A stretch of 64,000 nt of DNA, taken from Thelephora terrestris (lineage: Eukaryota; Basidiomycota; Agaricomycetes; Thelephorales; Thelephoraceae). A program made the position numbers and the translations under genes. The stretch's first letter is position 1, and each line of letters starts with the position of its first letter. The notes under the pieces were generated by a model. The model saw only the letters and a program-made list of their open reading frames with translations. It had not been told where the DNA came from and did not search any database. This document shows positions 52,039 through 62,658 of this stretch, one piece after another. Location: NCBI GenBank assembly GCA_015956445.1, contig WIUZ02000011.1, forward strand, positions 1,203,501 to 1,267,500, in the 5' to 3' direction.

Positions 52039-54510
52039 CTAGAGTCGTTTCCACCTGTTCTCGGTTTCGAAGATTTCCCACGCTTGTGAATCACGGATGG
52101 AGTCTTCGAGAAGCCCTTGCTCTGTGTCGTGCGGGTCGGTTTTGCGTGCCTCTGCTGGACGAAGGCTTTGGCGAGTGCTGAGTCGTCTATGAAAACCTTG
52201 TTCTGGGTGATCAAATGGGAAGACGAGAGGTTCGAGTTCGTGGGGAAGGTCAATTGGCGGGAGGAGTTTATCTCGGTTGGGTAAAATACCTCTCGATGGT
52301 CCGTCTGCTGGGTTTGAGGCGCTCGGTATGTACCTCGTGTAGACCGTGCATCCATGTATACGGAGAAGAAGGTGGATTCGTTTGAAAACTTCGTTTGCTT
52401 GGTGGTTTCGGCTGCGGCCTGTCCACCACCCTTCGACGACGGCTCGGTTGTCCCCATAGACCCTGAACCGTGTGCCTCGCGGAGCTTTTTGGAGGACTGA
52501 TCGAATAAGGAGCTCCATGCCAATGGCTTCCGCCCATATGATATCCCGCTTGTCGGCATTCCATCCCGATTTGAGGACCCATGCCCTCCACCTGTCCTGG
52601 ATGACCACTCCAATTCCCAGAGTCGAACTAGCATCAGAGAACGCTCTGACATCGACCACGCTGTGTGCTCCAGGTACCTCTCGAGTGAGGACTGGTGTGT
52701 TGAGGGTTTTTAGCCACCAGAGAAGATCAGAGTCAGTGTGATGTGGCTGGTGCCTCGGTTTATGGGGAGAGTCGTGAAAAATTCCGAGCATCCTTTCCAA
52801 TTTGGTAAGATATGCCCGACCCTCTGGCACCACCAGGCACGTGTGCAGCAGCTTGCCATACAGCTTTTGCACATTGTCCAGGGTGTGTGTTTTTCGACGC
52901 CGCCACTCCTCCACCGCGCTTCGATATTTGCCCTTCTTTTTGTCTTGCAAACTGACTGTCTTTTTCTCGAGGTCCCAGTCGAAGCCTATGAAAGGCACCA
53001 CTTTCCCAAACGGGACGTCTTTTGATCGCTCCCAGGGAATGCCCAAGCGCGTGCTAATGGTGTCGACATCATCCATTGAGTAGGCGTACGTGAGATTCCT
53101 CCCTTCGGCTAAACCGTTCGAAAGGTCCCGCAAGGGAGATGACATATCTTCGGCAAACTCTTCGAACTGGTCGTTGGGCAGGACCTCACCTTTGAACCAG
53201 AATCTACCTCCTTTCTGTTGCCTGCCCCCATTAGCCTTGATTCTCCGCCTCCAATTTTCTCGTAGCTTGTTGTATTCTTCCAGAAATCGTCGTTCTAGCA
53301 GGAAGAAAACAAAATCGTCCACCCATCTGAGGGATGGGCCTATACCTTCTGCCCGGAACATATCCAGGAGCGCATCGCCAAAGAGGCCGAACAAGCCGCC
53401 CGAGGATTTTTTTCCAAAGCTTGTGCATGTGTTCAACGCGAACGATCCGGGCTTCGATTGTGTTTCCTCCTCTAGCCGAACTACAATGCCTGGCCATTGG
53501 TCCCGTGCTAAAGGTATTATCCTATAAGCTTCCGAGACATCTCTGCATGCACCTAAAGACCCCGGTGGTAGAGATCGGACGATGATCGAGGCGGTGGAAA
53601 AAGTTCCCCAGGTGCACATCAGGATAGTTGGGAATGAGTGTTTTATGGCTTTTCTCATTCTTTTCGTAAGTTATTGCAAGAAAAGGCAGAAAGAAGGGAA
53701 AAGTACGTACTTCTAGAAGTTATGTCGTGGATCTTGAGAAGTTGACGAACCAAATATAGTAATAAAGTGTCAAATAAGCGATGGGAAGTCGCGAAAAGTG
53801 CACGTCAAAAAACATTTGACAGCCATCTTCCTGATGCACGGGTACAGGTCAGATTCGATGGATGAATTAATTGATTGTATGCCAGGTAAGTTCCTGGGAT
53901 AGGAAAGGTTCTGGATAAGACGGAATTTACCGGGTTTGCCGGGTTTGGGAATTAATGAGAGGGGGGAAGTTTGGAACGGTCCTATAATACTCTCGAGCTC
54001 GTCCTTCGAGAACAGGCCCCAATAGCGTCCTTTCTCGAACTCGGTATTTACAATTTCGGCGAAAACGGCTTCGTGTGATACAATGGAGGGATGATTAGGG
54101 GGGGTGAAAGTAGAAAATATCTGCGCGATGCCAGCGTCTGCGCCATCGGAGATGAAATCCGGGATCTGTGGGTATCTGTTGAGAAGGTTGGTGCTTGTGA
54201 GGGCGGCCTTCCATTCATTCGCAATCAAGGGGGTTCGAATTTCAGGTTTGAGCCTCGGGGCATGAGTTGGCACCGTGTTCGTGTGAGCCACAACCGGAAC
54301 ACTCGTGTAGGTGTTTTCCGGACGGGTCGGTGCAACCGGTCGGCCTCTGCCAGTCGGTACAAAGGACCGAACCTCTGCCGTTGATGATCCTGCCGTTCGA
54401 GGCCCTGGAACATCTTGCCTTGCCACCACTCCATAACTCGGTGGCCTGACACTTTGCCGTGGGGTGTGGGTGTCTACCAAGGCAGATGTGGCAGGCTGGG
54501 AGCTTGTCAC
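52039..54510 (-). mobile_element. DIRS part: reverse transcriptase and RNase H
   Basis: The upstream part carries the beginning of the polymerase fingers (PLSLIPKPGKPGKFRLIQNL). The downstream part has the palm with the DD block (SLRWVDDFVFFL), the thumb/connection, and an RNase H domain (VRAFSDASSTLGIGVV, FRVYGDNRAVVEGWW, YIPSASNPADGPSRG). It matches reverse transcriptases of DIRS-type elements. Fossil; not treated as an expressed gene. Confidence 0.85.
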
Positions 54511-54642
54511 TGCGGGTTGAACTCTTTGTCGACGAGCGAAAGTTGGACCTCTTTGACGCTTCCGGTGATCGCGATCGGTGGCGTGGGCGAGCAGTATGCC
54601 TGACCGGTGATCTCGAACGTGACGACCTTTGCCGTCGGGATC

Positions 54643-55860
54643 TCAGGTCCTGGGACTTGTAACTTTGCCTGGTGTACTGCTTGTCGAGCAGATCTTCTTG
54701 CTTTCGCAGAAGTTCGCGTTGCCGAGCCTGTTAGCAGAATTGCGTGCGGGTGAGAGTTTCGTGCGGTGCAGGTGCATGGGTGAGGTACGACGCGGAGGCA
54801 TGGTGTCGTGTTGCGGTGCGGTGCGGGTGCGAGGGTGCAGGATATGTGTGGTGCGGTGCCCGATGCAAGTTTGATGCCAATAATTTATGCCCATCAGCCA
54901 TTGATGGGGGAAAGGAATATGTCCGTCAGTGTTTGCTTGTTGGTGAAATAGCCAGGAAGTTGACCTTACATTATTTGCGGCTTGCTCCTCAGATAAGATC
55001 TGCCTATGGAAATCATATAGCAGTTCCTTGTTGATCGTGCCAATGGCATAGGCGTTACCGCGGGCCAGGGCCTTCGTCCAGTCTCGGCGAACTTTCTCCT
55101 GGTAGCGCAGCACCGCTCGTAGACCACCGGGTTGAGAACGCAGGGAGTGATAGTCCAGGTTGAAGAAAAACTTTGCGAGCTCCTTCGTTTCAAGCGCGCT
55201 CCACCCGTTCTCCTCCATGCAGTTCAGCAATCGATTCCTTCCCTCTGACCACTGTTCGTAGGTAAGGTTCTCGTCTTTGACAACCTTTGATGCCATAGCT
55301 GATGCTTCGACTGATTCGACCACGACACCATGGTTTGTGGTGACAAAGTTGATTGCTCCTTCCGGGGACGCTGAATCAATCGCGGCTGATTCTTGACATC
55401 CTCGGGCGGTGAAATGCCAGAGTTCTACATATTCCTTCTTCTCTAGCCTTTTCAGCGCATGACGAGCGGGTTGAACATCGAGGAAGCTGGGAGTGGGTCG
55501 GCTGGTCCAATCGGGTACCTCGTCGACCGAAGACGAGCGGGTTCCCGGGGCATTTCCAGGGTTGGGATGGTCCTGGTCCTGGTCCTCTTGGCCCTGGTCT
55601 TCCTGATTCTGCAATAGTTGTTCATTCCATAACTCGATGTTCCGTTGGTGGTTGTCTCTCCAAGATTTTTGCAAGGCCGCTACAGCCTCCTCTCCAGTCA
55701 TCCCTTGGGCTATGAGAGCTTCTCTGGGCACACTCCAATTTCCGCCTTCGAAGTCAGGTTCTTCTTCCAGCGTGGGATCACGGGGCGCCATCTCCGCAAT
55801 GAGTGTGTTTGGTGGTGGGCAACGCGGGCCATCCGATCGTCGGGCGCTAATGGCCTCCAC
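54643..55860 (-). mobile_element. DIRS part: gag-like region
   Basis: A long frame upstream of the reverse transcriptase with no strong motif. It contains Trp-rich segments (EGGNWSVP, WRDNHQRNIELWNEQ) and a central block around RPTPSFLDVQPARHALKR. Position alone suggests the gag-like frame. Confidence 0.55.
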
Positions 55861-56270
55861 GACAAAACACCGGTTGCGAGTCTTTTGAGAATATATCCCG
55901 AAGGTGTGTCGAGATGAAAAAATGGAGAATAATTCAACAAAAAGGTAAGGTGGATAAAATTATGGTAGACTTGTTTATCTGGCTTCGTGCGACGTCGACA
56001 ATGTGTATTATTAACCAAAAATCTATTTGTCCATGCGGATTGCAGTCCCGCATCCAATGATGATATCTCTCATTTTTTTCTCGACGGAATTGGATCGCAG
56101 GGACTTGAGTTGGTTTGTTGCAATCCCTCAGTTGGTCGGAGGTAGGTTACCATATTTGGGTACATGCTAGTTACGTAATAGCGACTGAATGCATATGCGA
56201 AGCCGGCCTGAAAGGAGGCTCGACAAAATCTCTCCATAAGTCTCCACCCCATCCGCAAGACTGAAAAAAA

Positions 56271-59200
56271 ATGCCCCTCAAAGGTCACCAAAGGACCAAA
56301 AACCAGAAGGCCCATGTTGCCGCGATGGGAAAACGACGTTGGCCACCAAAGTCTCATCCCGAGGCCGAGGCGATCAGCCACGAAACGATCAGCCCCGAAA
56401 CGCCCAGCCCCGAAACGATCAGCCACGAGGTGACTGTCTCAAGGCACCAGCGTCTGCGCTTGAAGGCAGAGAAGAGGTTCAGGGACGAGAAGGAGAGATC
56501 CCGGAGGGTGGAACGCAATTCAACAAGGCGAGAGCAGCGGCTGCACGAGAAGTTGAAGAGGTCTGAAGAAGAGTCACGGGTTCAATTTGAGGAGGGGGTA
56601 AAGGAAGGCATAAGGGTAACTCACGAAGGTGAGGTTGAGGAGCTGAGAGGCAAAGTCAAGGAGCTGAAGAAGGACCTTGCGAGGCACAACGCTCGCGATC
56701 GTCGAGAGCCGTTGAGGGTCGAGCACGCAATCCGGAAAGCCTTGACATCCGATGGCGACCCCGACCCAAATCTACCGATTGTACGGTACGTCAAGGACCG
56801 GCGAGGAATAGTCCGAGACTGGGCACGCAAAGCAATCGTGACCCTCGTCAACGAGGGAGTCCCAATATCGAAGACATGGTCGGTCACCAAGGCAAACGCG
56901 GATGCATTGGGAGTGGTGATCATTGGAAAATGGAGTACCCGAACGAGTGGACGAGTAGTTCGGGAGGGAGGAATTGCGGCGGAGCTCATGATTACGGGTT
57001 ATGTCTTGACGTGCATTTGTTCGTTGTACAAAAGTGTCCATTAATCTGCTTACTCACTCGACATTTTAGCGATGACAATGAGCGGTGATGGGACCACACA
57101 CAAGAACATTCAGTTCTCGTCAAGGCATGTCACGGTTATCTCATCCAACGACGGCCACCCGAAGGACCTCTTCCTCGGGGTTGTTCCCGAGGTAAACCAC
57201 ACCACTGACACTCAATTCGAGGGTTGGAAGCAAACAATACAGGACCTCTGCAACACCTACAACAAGAGTCCCCTTGGGAACACAATCCCTGCCAGCTCAA
57301 CCAAGATTTGGGAGAAGTTGAAGGGATATCTAAGTGACCACACTTCGGACCAAAAGAAGCTTTCGGGAATGCTGGAGCGATTTCGGTGGGAATGCGATCG
57401 AGAGCTTCGAGGCGAAGCGGCAATCCTTTCGGGCGAATACAGAAAGGAGTGGGAGCGGGTGTTCAAAGAGAAAGGAGAGGAGATGATGGAGGAGATTGGT
57501 GGCCCTGCGCAGTATCACTCGCTTTTGCTCGACGAGCAACTGCAGTTTGCACAGCGGTTGGTTCATGAAGCACAGATTTGCCTTGGCGAACAGGTGTATG
57601 AGAGGTTGTCACCTGAGGAGAAGGCGAGGATAGATTACTGGGTATGGTCTGGGTGCGCGATGCACAAGGACTTGAACGCGATGAAGGGTGGGGTAAGCCG
57701 AATGGGAACTTGGTGGAAAGAGTGTGGCGATGGGATTGCCCCGGTTGCGTTGATGAACAAGTTCAAGGCGATCGCTGCAGATTTGGGCTCAATTCGAGAA
57801 GAGGCCTTGGCGGCAGCCGGAGATAGAGGAGGGGCGAAGCTGACGGGTCTTCTAGGCTCGCTCGTCAAACACCGGGAGACAAAAAAAGGACACCAGGATC
57901 GATTTCGGGCATTCTCAATGAAGTTCCTCGGGACGTTGCAGCCGGTTCAATTTCCAGACACAAGCAACAACCGATATCAAAGTCACGGCTTTGCCGCGAC
58001 TGAAATCCTCTACCATCAGGATCTCTACCTCACTTTCTTACATGAGGTAGCTGACTCGAAAGCCCTCAGTGGCGAACTGAACCATCTCGAGCAGAACGTA
58101 CTCACCGGTCTCAACGATCCTCCCACTCTCGCAGAACTTGCCGTCATGTCGCTCTATTCTCAAGCAATCAGCGCTCCTTTCGCTCAACGAATCCGCGACT
58201 CAGACTTGAATGGCTTAGATCTTGGCCCAGACTACGACCGTATCAAAGGACACATGAACGCCATCATCATTGAACCTGATCTCTTGATTGGACAGACCAC
58301 GACATACCAAACCGGGACGTTGTACGGAAACCCGTGGGATAACGAGGCCACCGTCAGGTTCATTCAATCCAACCAGTGTTCCCTCCCCCATCTACGAGAT
58401 ATTTTGATCGCCTTTTTCCGAGGCGCGCTGGAGACTTGGGAAGATTTCACTCGGGATATCTGTGAAGAAGCCAAGGTCACAGGCGCAACCCCAGAGCAAC
58501 GGCGCCTTGCCTTCAGGCATCCAGCAAATGATCTCAACGAAGGCGCACTTGGCCTTCTGCGCAGAGAGTACCGGGCCTTTCCCAACATCATGTTCAACAT
58601 GGTCAACATGAAACTCATGTCAAGGTCAGTCCCGAAACGATCATACATCGGGTCGGAAATCTCACAAGATATGAAGGCTAAACCCGGGTGCTGTGGATTA
58701 CATGGCAAACCTCTCCCCTGATGGAAAGTGTTTCCTCCGAGGAATGGCCCGAGACCAAGATCAGAAAAAAGTGCACAAAAAATTCCTCCTTTCACAGGCA
58801 GAAGAGAACACCAGGAATGCCGGCGAAAAGCGAGCGGCCGCTGACCGACGCAAGAAGCGGGCTGACGATCGAACGACCAAACTGGAAAAATTCAAACCAA
58901 TCCTCAGTCTCAAGGAGTTGCGGGAGTTGACCGTCGATGGCGACAAAGCGGCTCGAATCAAGGAACAGCTTTCTTGGCACCGGCACATTGGCAAAGATGT
59001 CAACATTCCGTCAGGGTTTCATGGATTTCGTAAGGCAAAAGCCTGGGTTGCCATGATCCAAGCAGTGAAGAGACGCCTACGTGGGGAAGCGGACCTGAAA
59101 ACCAAAGGTACGTCCACACAGCAACGGTACTTAATACAAGAATTTGAGATCCTACAGAACCTGAGGAAATTGATGAAAACAGTGACCCCTTCGTCGGGAT

Positions 59201-60380
59201 CAAAACCGCATCGGATGCGGAAGACGGTGACGACGATGACAGCTTAACCGCTGTCCATGAAAACAACACTGACCCCGTTCTTGCTGATGACATTTGCCTC
59301 GATTCAGCCATCAGCTCCGGGAATGAAACTTCCGACGAGGACGGGGAAACTGACTCGGAAAACGAAGGTGCTTACCCGCCTAGTGAAGATGGAAACACCA
59401 AAGAGGATAGGGATGGAGGACCAGCAGACCTCAGTCATTGGTTTGGTGGCGCCGAACTTGGGATCGTTCCGCCGATGCCGACCTGCAGGACGGAAAGTCA
59501 ACAGCCGCGGTGTCGACACCTTGCTGGGTGTGAGTGGACCGGTGAGAACTGGTCTTGCTCCTATGACGCTGTGTTTATGTCGTTCTGGTCAATCTACGAG
59601 CAATCGTCTCCCGCCTGGCGTGATGACTGGAGTCGGTTTTCGCCAGACTGGAATGCCCCACTGCGCAACAACTTCGACCACCTGATCCTCCTCGCAGACA
59701 CTCCAATTGATGCCCGCGACCAAGCCGTGTGGTTCTCTCGGTATCGAGACCGCTTCCGCAACCAACTGTCACACGCGGATCCAGGATCGTTCCCGCGCTG
59801 GGGACCGGTCCCAGCCTCCGCTGCTCGTATCCTCCGGCTCACCTTTGGTCGGTTCGATGGGCCATATCTCGAGCAGGACCTCATGTGTTCGAAATGCGGG
59901 GCGACGACCAAGGCCGAAATCGACACCCGGTTCCTCGCGTGCGGTCTTGGGCGGAATATCAGGATCTCCGCTTCGCTACATGCCGTTTGGGAAGAAACTC
60001 TTCAACGCTATCACTCAAGACCGTTTTCTCCACAAGCCAAATGTCACTGCCGTGGTCAGAACAAAGTTGAAGGATTACGGATGCCGGATGCACCCTGGAT
60101 TTGGTTTGAACGGGAGGAGGCTTCACCCGTGGGACCCTCCTTGACCCTTACATTTAATTCCCCATCCCAACAGCTTACCTATAGCCTGTGGTCAATCATC
60201 TACGCTGGTGGGAATCACTTCACGGTTCGGTTCCGTGAACAATCGGGTGGGTGGTGGAAGCACGATGGCCGGATTGCGTCAGGAGTCCCGCAACTCGACG
60301 ATGTCCGATCCGAGGCTGAACTTCTCAAGAATGGCGGGCGCTTTGCCTGCATATTTGTTTACCGTCGGGACGACCACTAA
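56271..60380 (+). CDS. Transposase-like protein with C-terminal USP-like peptidase
   Basis: Four exons (56271-56997, 57070-58624, 58677-59107, 59158-60380) join with consensus splice sites and unbroken phase to 1311 codons. Residues 30-160 are basic with a long coiled coil. At 246-253 comes MSGDGTTH followed by SRHVTVI, which looks like the first strand pair and Asp of an RNase H-like fold (inference). About 500 helical residues follow, then an acidic linker (910-1000). The C-terminal domain has a USP-type Cys box (GENWSCSYDAVFMSFW, Cys1038), a zinc-ribbon CxxC (1148/1151) with CxC (1200/1202), and a His box (YSLWSIIYAGGNHF, His1258; WWKHDG, Asp1274). This is the triad order of C19 deubiquitinases. 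Proteins like the body are multicopy in mushrooms; I cannot name the family. It may be a DNA-transposon gene related to KDZ-type elements, or a cargo gene. Confidence 0.75.
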
Positions 60381-60931
60381 ACCGCGGCCAGGATCTGTTT
60401 TTTTTGTATTGTCACTGACCATATCTTGTGTTCGCAGCCCCAGAATTGCAGATCCCCACTTACGCTACCCACTGAACAATATTCATTCAACTTTTCCCCA
60501 ATCCGTGTACTGTATATACATGAGAATGTATCCCGCGTGCTATTCCAACGATTGCCAACGCGTGTAATATATTGTCGTCCGCACCGTCGAAAAGTGGTGT
60601 TTGGCAGGGAATAGCTGACGTAATCAGTTACGATCACTTTGGTGGCGTTGCCTACCACCAGTGTGTTTGGTAAATGAGAGTCGAGCCGGAGTAGAATATT
60701 ATGAAGGAAACTGATTGATGAGAGCGAGTAAGAAAAAGGGGGGGAATTAAACTGGTAGGTTTTGTAGAATGCTTTTGTTTTGAAAAGGAAACGAGCGAGT
60801 AATGCAAAGGCGGTGAGGAGGTGGAAGTGCTCTCGAAAGAGCCGCACGTGCCCACCTCTGCCGCATTCGCAAAGACGGCATTCTCTAATTCGATCGTTCC
60901 TCACTCAACGAGACTTTCATCCTCTCCCCAC
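60381..60931. other. Right flank of the composite insertion
   Basis: Non-coding sequence after the USP-like gene, up to the border 20 bp before the F-box start codon. It has no counterpart in arm A. Confidence 0.6.
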
Positions 60932-60950: not shown

Positions 60951-62658
60951 ATGTCACCGTCCACTTCTGCCAACGACGAATTCCTCCCGGCTAAAGGTTG
61001 TACAATGTAAGTGATTGCATCGTCTATGTAAGATAATCCACAACCTAAGTCAGAGCAGCCTTAGCAATGAAATCGGCATCGGAACCATACGGAGCGTGGA
61101 GCAGCAGATAAAGGAGCACGAGATGGCCATCATAAGACTGAAGCGCGTCCGGAATTCATTGTTGAACGTATCCAGGCTCCCGCCTGAGATCCTCGGGGAC
61201 ATTTTCTGCCGGAACGTCACCTTCAAGGGACTTTTTGGCGGATTGGGGAAGGGATCTCACAACTTCCTGCTCGTCTGTCATCACTGGTTCGAAGTTGCCT
61301 CCTGCACTCCAGACCTTTGGAGTTTCTGGGGAAACAACTTGCGAGACTGGACGAAATTGCACCTTCGATACCCAACATCCCCAGTCGATCTCGTGTTGGA
61401 CGGATCATGGAACAAGAGTCAAACTCTCCACGAAGCTTGCGAAATGCACTTCAAGATCGTGCCACGCGGGACGCCTTACGCCGGATTCATCTCAGGTCCA
61501 GAGATCCGGAGCTTCTGGCGTCCGTAATCTCTCCGCTATCTGGTTGCGGAGAGGTTCGGTCTAGCAGCGTCGAGTCCATCATCATACTGGACGAACTCGA
61601 ATCAGTCGATCTCTCGGATTTCTTCACTTACTACCGCTTCCCCAAACTGCGACACCTCGAACTCAGCGGCTTCAATATCTCCACGTTGGACCTTATCAGT
61701 TCACGAACTTCCGCTCTCACAACCCTCGATCTCTAAGGGAGGACTCGTTACCACGGAAATCTGTCCCAGAAATCGAGACTCTTCGAAGGTCACGATTGGA
61801 GCTGAGTATCGAGAGTAATTGTGAGGGAGTGTCAAAATAGAGTCCCACTCCGCCACCTGAGGGAACTCGAGCTGATTGGAAACACAAGCCACGTCTTCGG
61901 GCTTCTCCACCAATTAGAACACCCCGGAAGTATGAAAAGTTATCAGCGCAGTAGACTCTACGAACGAGGATATTTTGAAGACCATCGGACCTTACCTTGG
62001 GGACTACCTTCGACGCCGTGGACGGTCTCAAAATGGGCTGGGACTTTTTCTATCCTCATCCGCGGAGGATTGCATCGAATTACAAGTTGGTGATGTGGGT
62101 GGGATTGACTTCTCTGCCCTTGGACCGGCGCAGATGGACAAGTTTGTGGATATCACCATTTATCTGGATCAAATGTTGTTCCCAAACGCGGATGCGGCCC
62201 TCGATCTTATTGCACACGCCCCGAGGGAAGATGTCGTTTACTTTCGAACCGACGGCCGTCCCCTAACCACGCAGACCATATCCACCCGGTTTCCACACAT
62301 AAGGGCACTACACTACGAGGGGACACCTCTCTCCATCACGTTACCCGGGCCAACCCCCGACGAGCATCCGAACGTCTTCCCGTCTCTCCAACGTGTCAAC
62401 TTGGACCGGATGATCGTGTCACACGGTGATTGGGGTCCCCTGATAACCTTTCTGGTCCGTCGTGCGTCCTATGGACGTCGACTTGACATACTCGAGATCA
62501 ACGATCCTGTTTTTATTCGTGCGGAGGTGATGGAGAGTATCAAGGAAGTTTTCGGGGTGTTTAGATTAACCGATATAAAATCTTCACCACAGGTGAGGTG
62601 GGCACGACTCTGGAGGTGTGTCGTCGAGGGTGAACAGGATGTTAGGAAGGACGGATAG
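60951..62658 (+). pseudogene. F-box pseudogene (copy of F-box 4)
   Basis: Keeps the start (MSPSTSANDEFLPAKGCT), the intron, the coiled coil and the F-box LPPEILGDIFCRNV. A one-base loss at about 61433 (CACGAAGCTTG against CACGAAAGCTTG in the intact gene) shifts the frame after LVLDGSWNKSQTLHE. At 61733-61840 a 108 bp segment is inverted and slightly shortened. From 61975 a long open frame matches the C-terminal half (RAEVMESIKEVFGVFRLT). Its promoter lies 12 kb away, beyond the insertion. It cannot encode the full protein. Confidence 0.9.

Follow-up and report, generated by a model that had tools for sequence, protein, structure and literature searches.

A Thelephora terrestris DNA transposon whose gene probably joins a transposase-like protein to a USPL1-like cysteine peptidase domain also present in Helitrons

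A stretch of 64,000 nucleotides (nt) of the Thelephora terrestris genome (contig WIUZ02000011.1, positions 1,203,501 to 1,267,500; below, the window) holds a long gene in which a transposase-like body is followed by a C-terminal tail resembling ubiquitin-specific proteases (USP, family C19). A reading made from the sequence alone described it as a transposase-deubiquitinase fusion borne by a mobile element. What kind of unit carries this gene, and which modifier would its tail remove? We assign a probability of roughly 0.55 to the reading that the locus is an autonomous-looking DNA transposon, the single gene of which encodes a transposase-like protein, an acidic linker and a USPL1-type cysteine isopeptidase.

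The genome searched comprises 40.6 Mb in 60 contigs; copies are named here by contig (C34, C10 etc.) and matches by L number. DNA similarity between the window and the C34 copy spans positions 55810-60660 with one gap near the 3' end, and its limits coincide exactly with the outer borders of the inverted repeat listed first (31 nt, 74% complementary), with which one further listed repeat ties at 31 nt. A script that looked for exact 7-bp duplications beside matching ends found a single such place in the window, with GTGTGTT as the duplicated sequence. Of 17 stretches, 15 were examined with the script (all but C7- and C17-), and 11 of the 15 combine an exact 7-bp duplication with ends mismatched at no more than 4 of 16 bases; copies with conserved ends, which the earlier reading proposed to look for, do exist in this genome. 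No matching ends with an exact 7-bp duplication were found in the remaining C14, C6, C45b and C1 stretches: in C6 both end repeats are present but no duplication matches, C14 retains the 5' repeat and C1 the 3' repeat, and the stretches examined for C1 and C45b may not extend to both element ends. A control with 40 random block pairs gave no matches at up to 3 mismatches, one at 4 and seven at 5. Since the control also yields a match at 4 mismatches, the C10 match, which has 4, is weak taken alone.

Insertion of the element is demonstrated directly by an empty site. The 510 bp to the left of the element recur at C7:170334-170843 (L079), and the C7 locus is 99.5% identical to the left flank over 1979 bp and 98.9% identical to the right flank over 273 bp. 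It has one GTGTGTT where the window carries two with the element between them. The window element is a DNA transposon with terminal inverted repeats, probably of the cut-and-paste type, and its mobile origin, proposed already in the sequence-only reading, is strongly supported by the repeats, the duplication and the empty site. That reading gave the limits of the gene correctly (56271-60380) and missed the ends of the element.

The C56 and C23 copies are 99.1% identical over 4873 bp, and those on C2 and C14 share 99.0% and 98.6% identity over two blocks; such near-identical pairs suggest that the family moved recently. A 926-bp element on C1 (L046, around 3410509-3411434) has ends matching at 16/16 bases, the duplication TTGAAAC and a remnant of the tail, and by its structure is a non-autonomous deletion derivative of the transposon. 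The copy at C14:568571-573252 shares about 99% identity with the C2 element and is interrupted; some 13 kb away, at C14:586280, there is a fragment similar to its 3' end (L013, L032, L040).

Could the gene instead be a domesticated host gene residing outside any active element? Long intact frames and purifying selection (see below) would agree with domestication, but the gene has its own inverted repeats and target duplication, near-identical copies are found on different contigs, and the deletion derivative has the same ends. As the empty site already contradicts it, we consider domestication very improbable.

The gene is a single open frame with three introns, starting at ATG 56271 and having its stop end at 60380. 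Its model was checked by comparison with three related copies (four in all). The ATG is aligned in all four, as are the GT at 57019 and the remaining five intron borders. By contrast, where the window has its GT at 56998, the three other copies lack one in the aligned columns (in C10, a GT follows one base later). Because the GT at 57019 is conserved in four of four copies and the one at 56998 is not, the donor of intron 1 was placed at 57019. The open frame and the number of introns of the earlier model are retained, while its 1311 codons follow from the donor at 56998 and are replaced in the better model by 1318 amino acids (aa). In the same way, the catalytic residues given as Cys1038, His1258 and Asp1274 keep their order, which is that of USPs, and shift to Cys1045, His1265 and Asp1281. 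The introns are less identical between copies than the four non-linker coding blocks in 9/9 intron/copy comparisons, and less identical than the variable linker block in only 7/9, introns 1 and 3 of C10 (0.583, 0.592) being slightly above the C10 linker (0.574).

Relatives of both parts are numerous, as the multicopy family noticed earlier implies: a 518-aa piece of exon 2, used as the body query, has 19 genome matches and the C-terminal domain has 22, counted as pieces with the window included. Tail alignment A1 contains 15 of the 22 C-terminal matches, without L032 and L039 (truncated near-duplicates), L040, L046 and L047 (short), L048 and L049 (one split copy); the trimmed alignment A6 has 12 of these 15 rows, with L036, L037 and L042 omitted. 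Cys30, Tyr245, His250, Phe251 and Trp263 (alignment numbering) are found in 15/15 tails, including the catalytic Cys and His, on whose conservation in homologues the sequence-only reading depended. Asp266 is present in 14/15, with Asn in L042, a copy having stops in its full match. The CxxC...CxC zinc-ribbon cysteines were correctly recognised in the window copy; across the alignment, two occur in 15/15 tails, one is Trp in L029 and the fourth is one column off in four Helitron rows and invariant in the trimmed 12-row alignment.

A PDB profile search with 15 rows placed two USPL1 chains (one protein) first and second (E 0.01 and 0.014), followed by 6tbm_Q (0.098), the ubiquitin carboxyl-terminal hydrolase Ubp8. 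With 12 trimmed rows the order was USPL1, 6tbm_Q, USPL1 (E 0.061, 0.065, 0.083). All leading matches are USP-fold peptidases, with the alignment staying in register at the His box and over the second half of the zinc ribbon. Pfam found no match in the window copy of the tail. PF00443 (UCH) matches 2/15 members, with the lowest Pfam E-value among members (0.0023, below the cut-off; L033 scores 17.1 bits against a cut-off of 23.9), and PF15499 (Peptidase_C98) matches 3/15 weakly (best E 0.042, below the cut-off); wherever bits are shown, matches to both families are under the Pfam curated cut-offs. Residue anatomy, constraint and the leading profile matches support the prediction of the tail as a C19-like cysteine peptidase, so the USP-type assignment made earlier holds in these respects, with the matches being weak and no single score decisive.

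If the tail is a peptidase of this kind, the closest described model is USPL1. According to the available part of the USPL1 report (PMC8983731), its triad is Cys236-His456-Asp472 with Asp at His+16, Phe457 directly follows the catalytic His456 where all ubiquitin USPs have Tyr, Tyr451 apparently replaces a conserved His, and two blocking loops are missing. The transposon tails have Phe after the catalytic His and Tyr at His-5, both in 15/15, and Asp at His+16, as in USPL1, in 14/15. The spacing between YxL and His is 12 residues, compared to 13 in USPL1 (alignment) and 16-17 in host USPs, which means that the USP blocking loop before His is gone. Host enzymes served as contrast: the genome has 33 UCH matches, and seven of the eight USP loci inspected have a readable His box, with a His located 8-9 residues before the catalytic His in 7/7 and Tyr after it in 6/7 (Cys in the seventh). 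Neither of these ubiquitin-USP traits, the Tyr after His and the conserved upstream His, is found in the tails. An aromatic residue after the catalytic His marks proteases for modifiers ending in Gly-Gly, USPL1 included, in the portion consulted of PMC7391069. USPL1/Peptidase_C98 and the tails thus share the Cys-His-Asp triad with its Asp position, the Phe at +1, the Tyr at -5, a short stretch before His and a four-Cys zinc site. In contrast to USPL1, the transposon domain scores below the Pfam cut-off, is fused to transposon proteins and belongs to a fungal host.

Since Phe after His, Tyr at -5 and the absent loop are traits of USPL1, a plain deubiquitinase, as the sequence-only reading had it, is not the best call. 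Judging by these residues, SUMO is somewhat favoured as the modifier removed by the tail, and ubiquitin would be a considerably less probable substrate. The corresponding alternative is that the same transposon encodes a true deubiquitinase shielding the transposase from proteasomal turnover, in the way proposed for the VTD domains of Helitrons. We find this unlikely: the Phe instead of Tyr after His and the Tyr instead of His upstream, each in 15/15, and the lost loop all argue against it, even though the residue order and the zinc ribbon are USP-like, UCH has the best Pfam E-value, 6tbm_Q is level with USPL1 in the 12-row profile and Helitron deubiquitinases of another family cleave ubiquitin (PMC9741609, as far as the part consulted goes).

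The acidic linker between body and tail contains a conserved island with (I/V)xL in 5/5 copies aligned, followed by D in four of them. It resembles a SUMO-interaction motif (SIM), a similarity that we regard as a lead only. A PF11976 search was not used as proof of SUMO, as the tandem matches on C34 and C1 look like polyubiquitin. Ulp1-type Peptidase_C48 matches occur at 12 places of the genome, including some equal-scoring pairs (C58 twice; C5 and C59). The Ulp1 (C48) fold belongs to the CE clan.

The linker is also relevant to another possibility, namely that the tail is a papain-fold peptidase with a different job, e.g., maturation of the transposase or of the RepHel protein by self-cleavage. 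The weak sequence support for the USP fold and the C-terminal position of the domain in the copies read would leave room for it. However, the linkers of the five aligned copies share no conserved diglycine, the linker ranks last in conservation among the coding blocks in 3/3 comparisons, and the aromatic residue beside His fits Gly-Gly modifiers (PMC7391069, part consulted). With no site conserved in the linker, self-processing is rated low and appears quite improbable.

A second carrier of the domain was found in the same genome. Tail matches L041 (C3), L043 (C18), L044 (C3) and L045 (C10) are placed within long frames or next to them. A PIF1 helicase domain was identified in L041 (E 4.6e-11), and the corresponding sequence is recognisable by eye in the remaining three. 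Helitron_like_N is located upstream on the same strand in 4/4. In three of them, the open frames containing Helitron_like_N and the tail are equal in length (2487, 2406 and 2406 aa); the fourth frame is broken by a stop just ahead of the tail. These tail-bearing Helitrons account for 4 of the 32 Helitron_like_N matches in the genome, and their tails form one clade (support 1.00) with 24-26% identity to the window tail. As Helitron RepHel frames end in the same domain, two unrelated transposon classes carry it: the peptidase-like domain, as predicted here, is common to an inverted-repeat transposon and to Helitrons of the same genome. In viral contigs, the patterns used found no relative of body or tail.

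Relatives of the body in this genome are 35-80% identical to the window. Body alignment A2 consists of 13 of the 19 matches, without L016 (one stop) and L021 and L024-L027 (fragments or stops). The SGDGTTH strand pointed out earlier is present, and all members covering the respective site keep the putative acidic residues, namely D of SGD (11/11), D of SDH (12/12) and E of NEG/SEG (11/11). Cys and His of a CxMH motif are found in 13/13. We infer that the body is a DDE transposase with putative catalytic residues; as it has no significant Pfam or PDB match, the word transposase is based on the element and on the order of motifs. Weak Pfam matches on exon 1 (phage scaffold, E 0.0018, below the cut-off) and exon 3 were disregarded, the four exon frames giving nothing significant.

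Two known groups of fungal transposons were considered as relatives. Like the window element, the fungal KDZ transposons (Kyakuja) are DNA transposons that have 7-bp target duplications and carry accessory enzymes, but according to the part of the source at hand (PMC12730594) Kyakuja ends are 5'-CA..TG-3' without inverted repeats. No KDZ match at E up to 10 was found in any of the 13 body members, although the genome holds 125 KDZ matches, a number that in itself points to a probable Agaricomycete-type fungus as host, and hhalign of the body with four KDZ pieces was not significant. The body was therefore not classified as KDZ/Kyakuja: Pfam KDZ does not match it and the ends differ, with inverted repeats present and no CA..TG. 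The hAT7 elements of rust fungi also have 7-bp target duplications (PMC12730594, same part); Pfam scans of the exon frames of our element and of the body members found no hAT domain, no comparison with a hAT profile having been made.

Body and tail seem to evolve together under constraint. The ratio of nonsynonymous to synonymous substitution rates (dN/dS), obtained for a chosen subset of all possible pairs, is 0.12-0.26 for the tail (12 pairs, including two from Helitrons) and 0.06-0.12 for the body (9 pairs), some of these values being rough because several pairs are near saturation (dS >1.5). The ratios indicate purifying selection on the tail, with weaker constraint there than on the body. 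For the 8 copies included in both trees, body and tail branch identically; therefore, both parts travel together.

A number of results weigh against a transposase joined to a USPL1-type isopeptidase. Besides the roughness of some dN/dS values, the PDB E-values of the tail are individually not significant (0.01-0.1), and the next matches, from E 0.28, are chance ones (photosystem I PsaA and others). When sub-profiles were made from single clades, the number of PDB matches was 0 (Helitron clade), 3 (39% clade) and 2 (window clade), and no USP was among them. Comparison of the tail with six host USP fragments by hhalign was not significant (probability 3.5), hmmsearch with the tail profile found nothing in the translated sequences of eight host USP loci, and a genome search for Peptidase_C98 was empty, though its control matched nowhere either. 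SUMO contacts were compared near the His box only, leaving out Arg324, Met330, Ser332, Phe335, His421, His493 and the second blocking loop. As for the body, its profile has no match in PDB, and Pfam gave nothing significant for it, only four weak single-member matches (best E 0.027). Single-sequence AlphaFold models of tail and body are poor, with a mean predicted local distance difference test (pLDDT) of 34.1 and 35.5, respectively.

Table 1. Features of the element and its gene in the window
Feature	Position	Strand	Basis or remark
Complete DNA transposon, 4851 bp	55810..60660	+	DNA similarity, end script, empty site
Target site duplication, left copy GTGTGTT	55803..55809	.	One copy at the C7 empty site, two here
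Target site duplication, right copy GTGTGTT	60661..60667	.	Same script and C7 comparison
Left terminal inverted repeat	55810..55840	+	Inverted-repeat listing; 1 of 16 end bases mismatched
Right terminal inverted repeat	60630..60660	-	Inverted-repeat listing, end script
Exon 1: charged N-terminus (possible coiled coil, by eye) and segment ahead of the transposase-like core	56271..57018	+	
Intron 1, 51 nt	57019..57069	+	Donor and acceptor aligned in 4/4 copies
Exon 2: transposase-like body; putative acidic residues in SGD, SDH and NEG motifs; CxMH motif	57070..58624	+	
Intron 2, 52 nt	58625..58676	+	Copy comparison
Exon 3: basic connector	58677..59107	+	
Intron 3, 50 nt	59108..59157	+	Copy comparison
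Exon 4, first part: acidic variable linker with SIM-like conserved island DDICLD	59158..59522	+	SIM reading tentative
Exon 4, second part to stop: predicted USPL1/USP-like cysteine isopeptidase domain (Cys1045, His1265, Asp1281, zinc-ribbon cysteines)	59523..60380	+	

The sequence-only reading had also connected the gene with F-box genes of the window. Directly downstream of the element, positions 61015-61524 contain an F-box-like domain (E 0.00057, below the cut-off) into which the element is not inserted. Since this neighbour is only F-box-like, the insertion site belongs to a repeat also present on C7 and the other body copies are on other contigs, a partnership with F-box genes was rejected. 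The element was inserted immediately upstream of a minus-strand frame (within 53770-55809) whose product by eye resembles a gag/RT-type repeat protein; the minus-strand frames there have no significant Pfam match.

How could such a protein work? The transposase-like half would bind the terminal repeats and perform cut-and-paste transposition. The modifier stripped by the tail, either from the transposase or from host proteins present at the element, would be SUMO or, less likely, ubiquitin or a further modifier ending in Gly-Gly. Removal of SUMO would oppose silencing that depends on SUMO, or protect the transposition complex from SUMO-targeted degradation. Being fused to the transposase, the isopeptidase would act where the element needs it. 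An influence of SUMO on transposition has a precedent in Sleeping Beauty, as SUMO1 lowered the effect of its host factor HMGXB4 (PMC10138897, part consulted).

Transposon-borne isopeptidases for ubiquitin or ubiquitin-like modifiers are already known as a kind (VTD, OTU, Ulp1). VTD domains of Helentron-type Helitrons cleave ubiquitin chains and were proposed to protect transposition proteins; like the tail, they are located in the frame of a transposon protein, but they represent a different protease family and animal Helitrons, and the accessible part of the report describes no fusion to a transposase with inverted-repeat ends (PMC9741609). Ulp1 (C48) domains of the plant MULEs Kaonashi/KIU are another case of a deSUMOylase-class domain retained by a DNA transposon, persisting there in an unknown role according to the portion of the source available; unlike our domain, they have another protease fold and sit on an accessory VANC-type gene of MULEs without terminal inverted repeats (PMC13317346). 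In fungi, a Pleurotus Helitron study reports that the RepHel frames examined there lack a cysteine protease domain (PMC4289320). Three aspects appear to be new here: the USPL1-like class, its fusion to a transposase-like protein and its sharing with fungal Helitrons. A USP- or USPL1-type peptidase on a transposase or a fungal Helitron was not found in the open-licence literature searched.

Taken more broadly, we tentatively propose that two unrelated fungal transposon classes (one a new superfamily having inverted repeats and 7-bp duplications, the other a lineage of Helitrons) may share an undescribed family of USPL1-type deSUMOylases used on their own proteins or on silencing complexes, with transposase and anti-silencing isopeptidase in the former combined in one polypeptide. 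Transposons have repeatedly acquired enzymes removing tags of the ubiquitin family, as Helitrons show for VTD and OTU and plant MULEs for Ulp1. As two mechanistically unrelated elements keep the same domain, one of them fused to a transposase-like protein, they provide a testable case for SUMO (or ubiquitin) as an obstacle that has to be overcome by fungal transposons, and intact copies of compact size are available for such tests.

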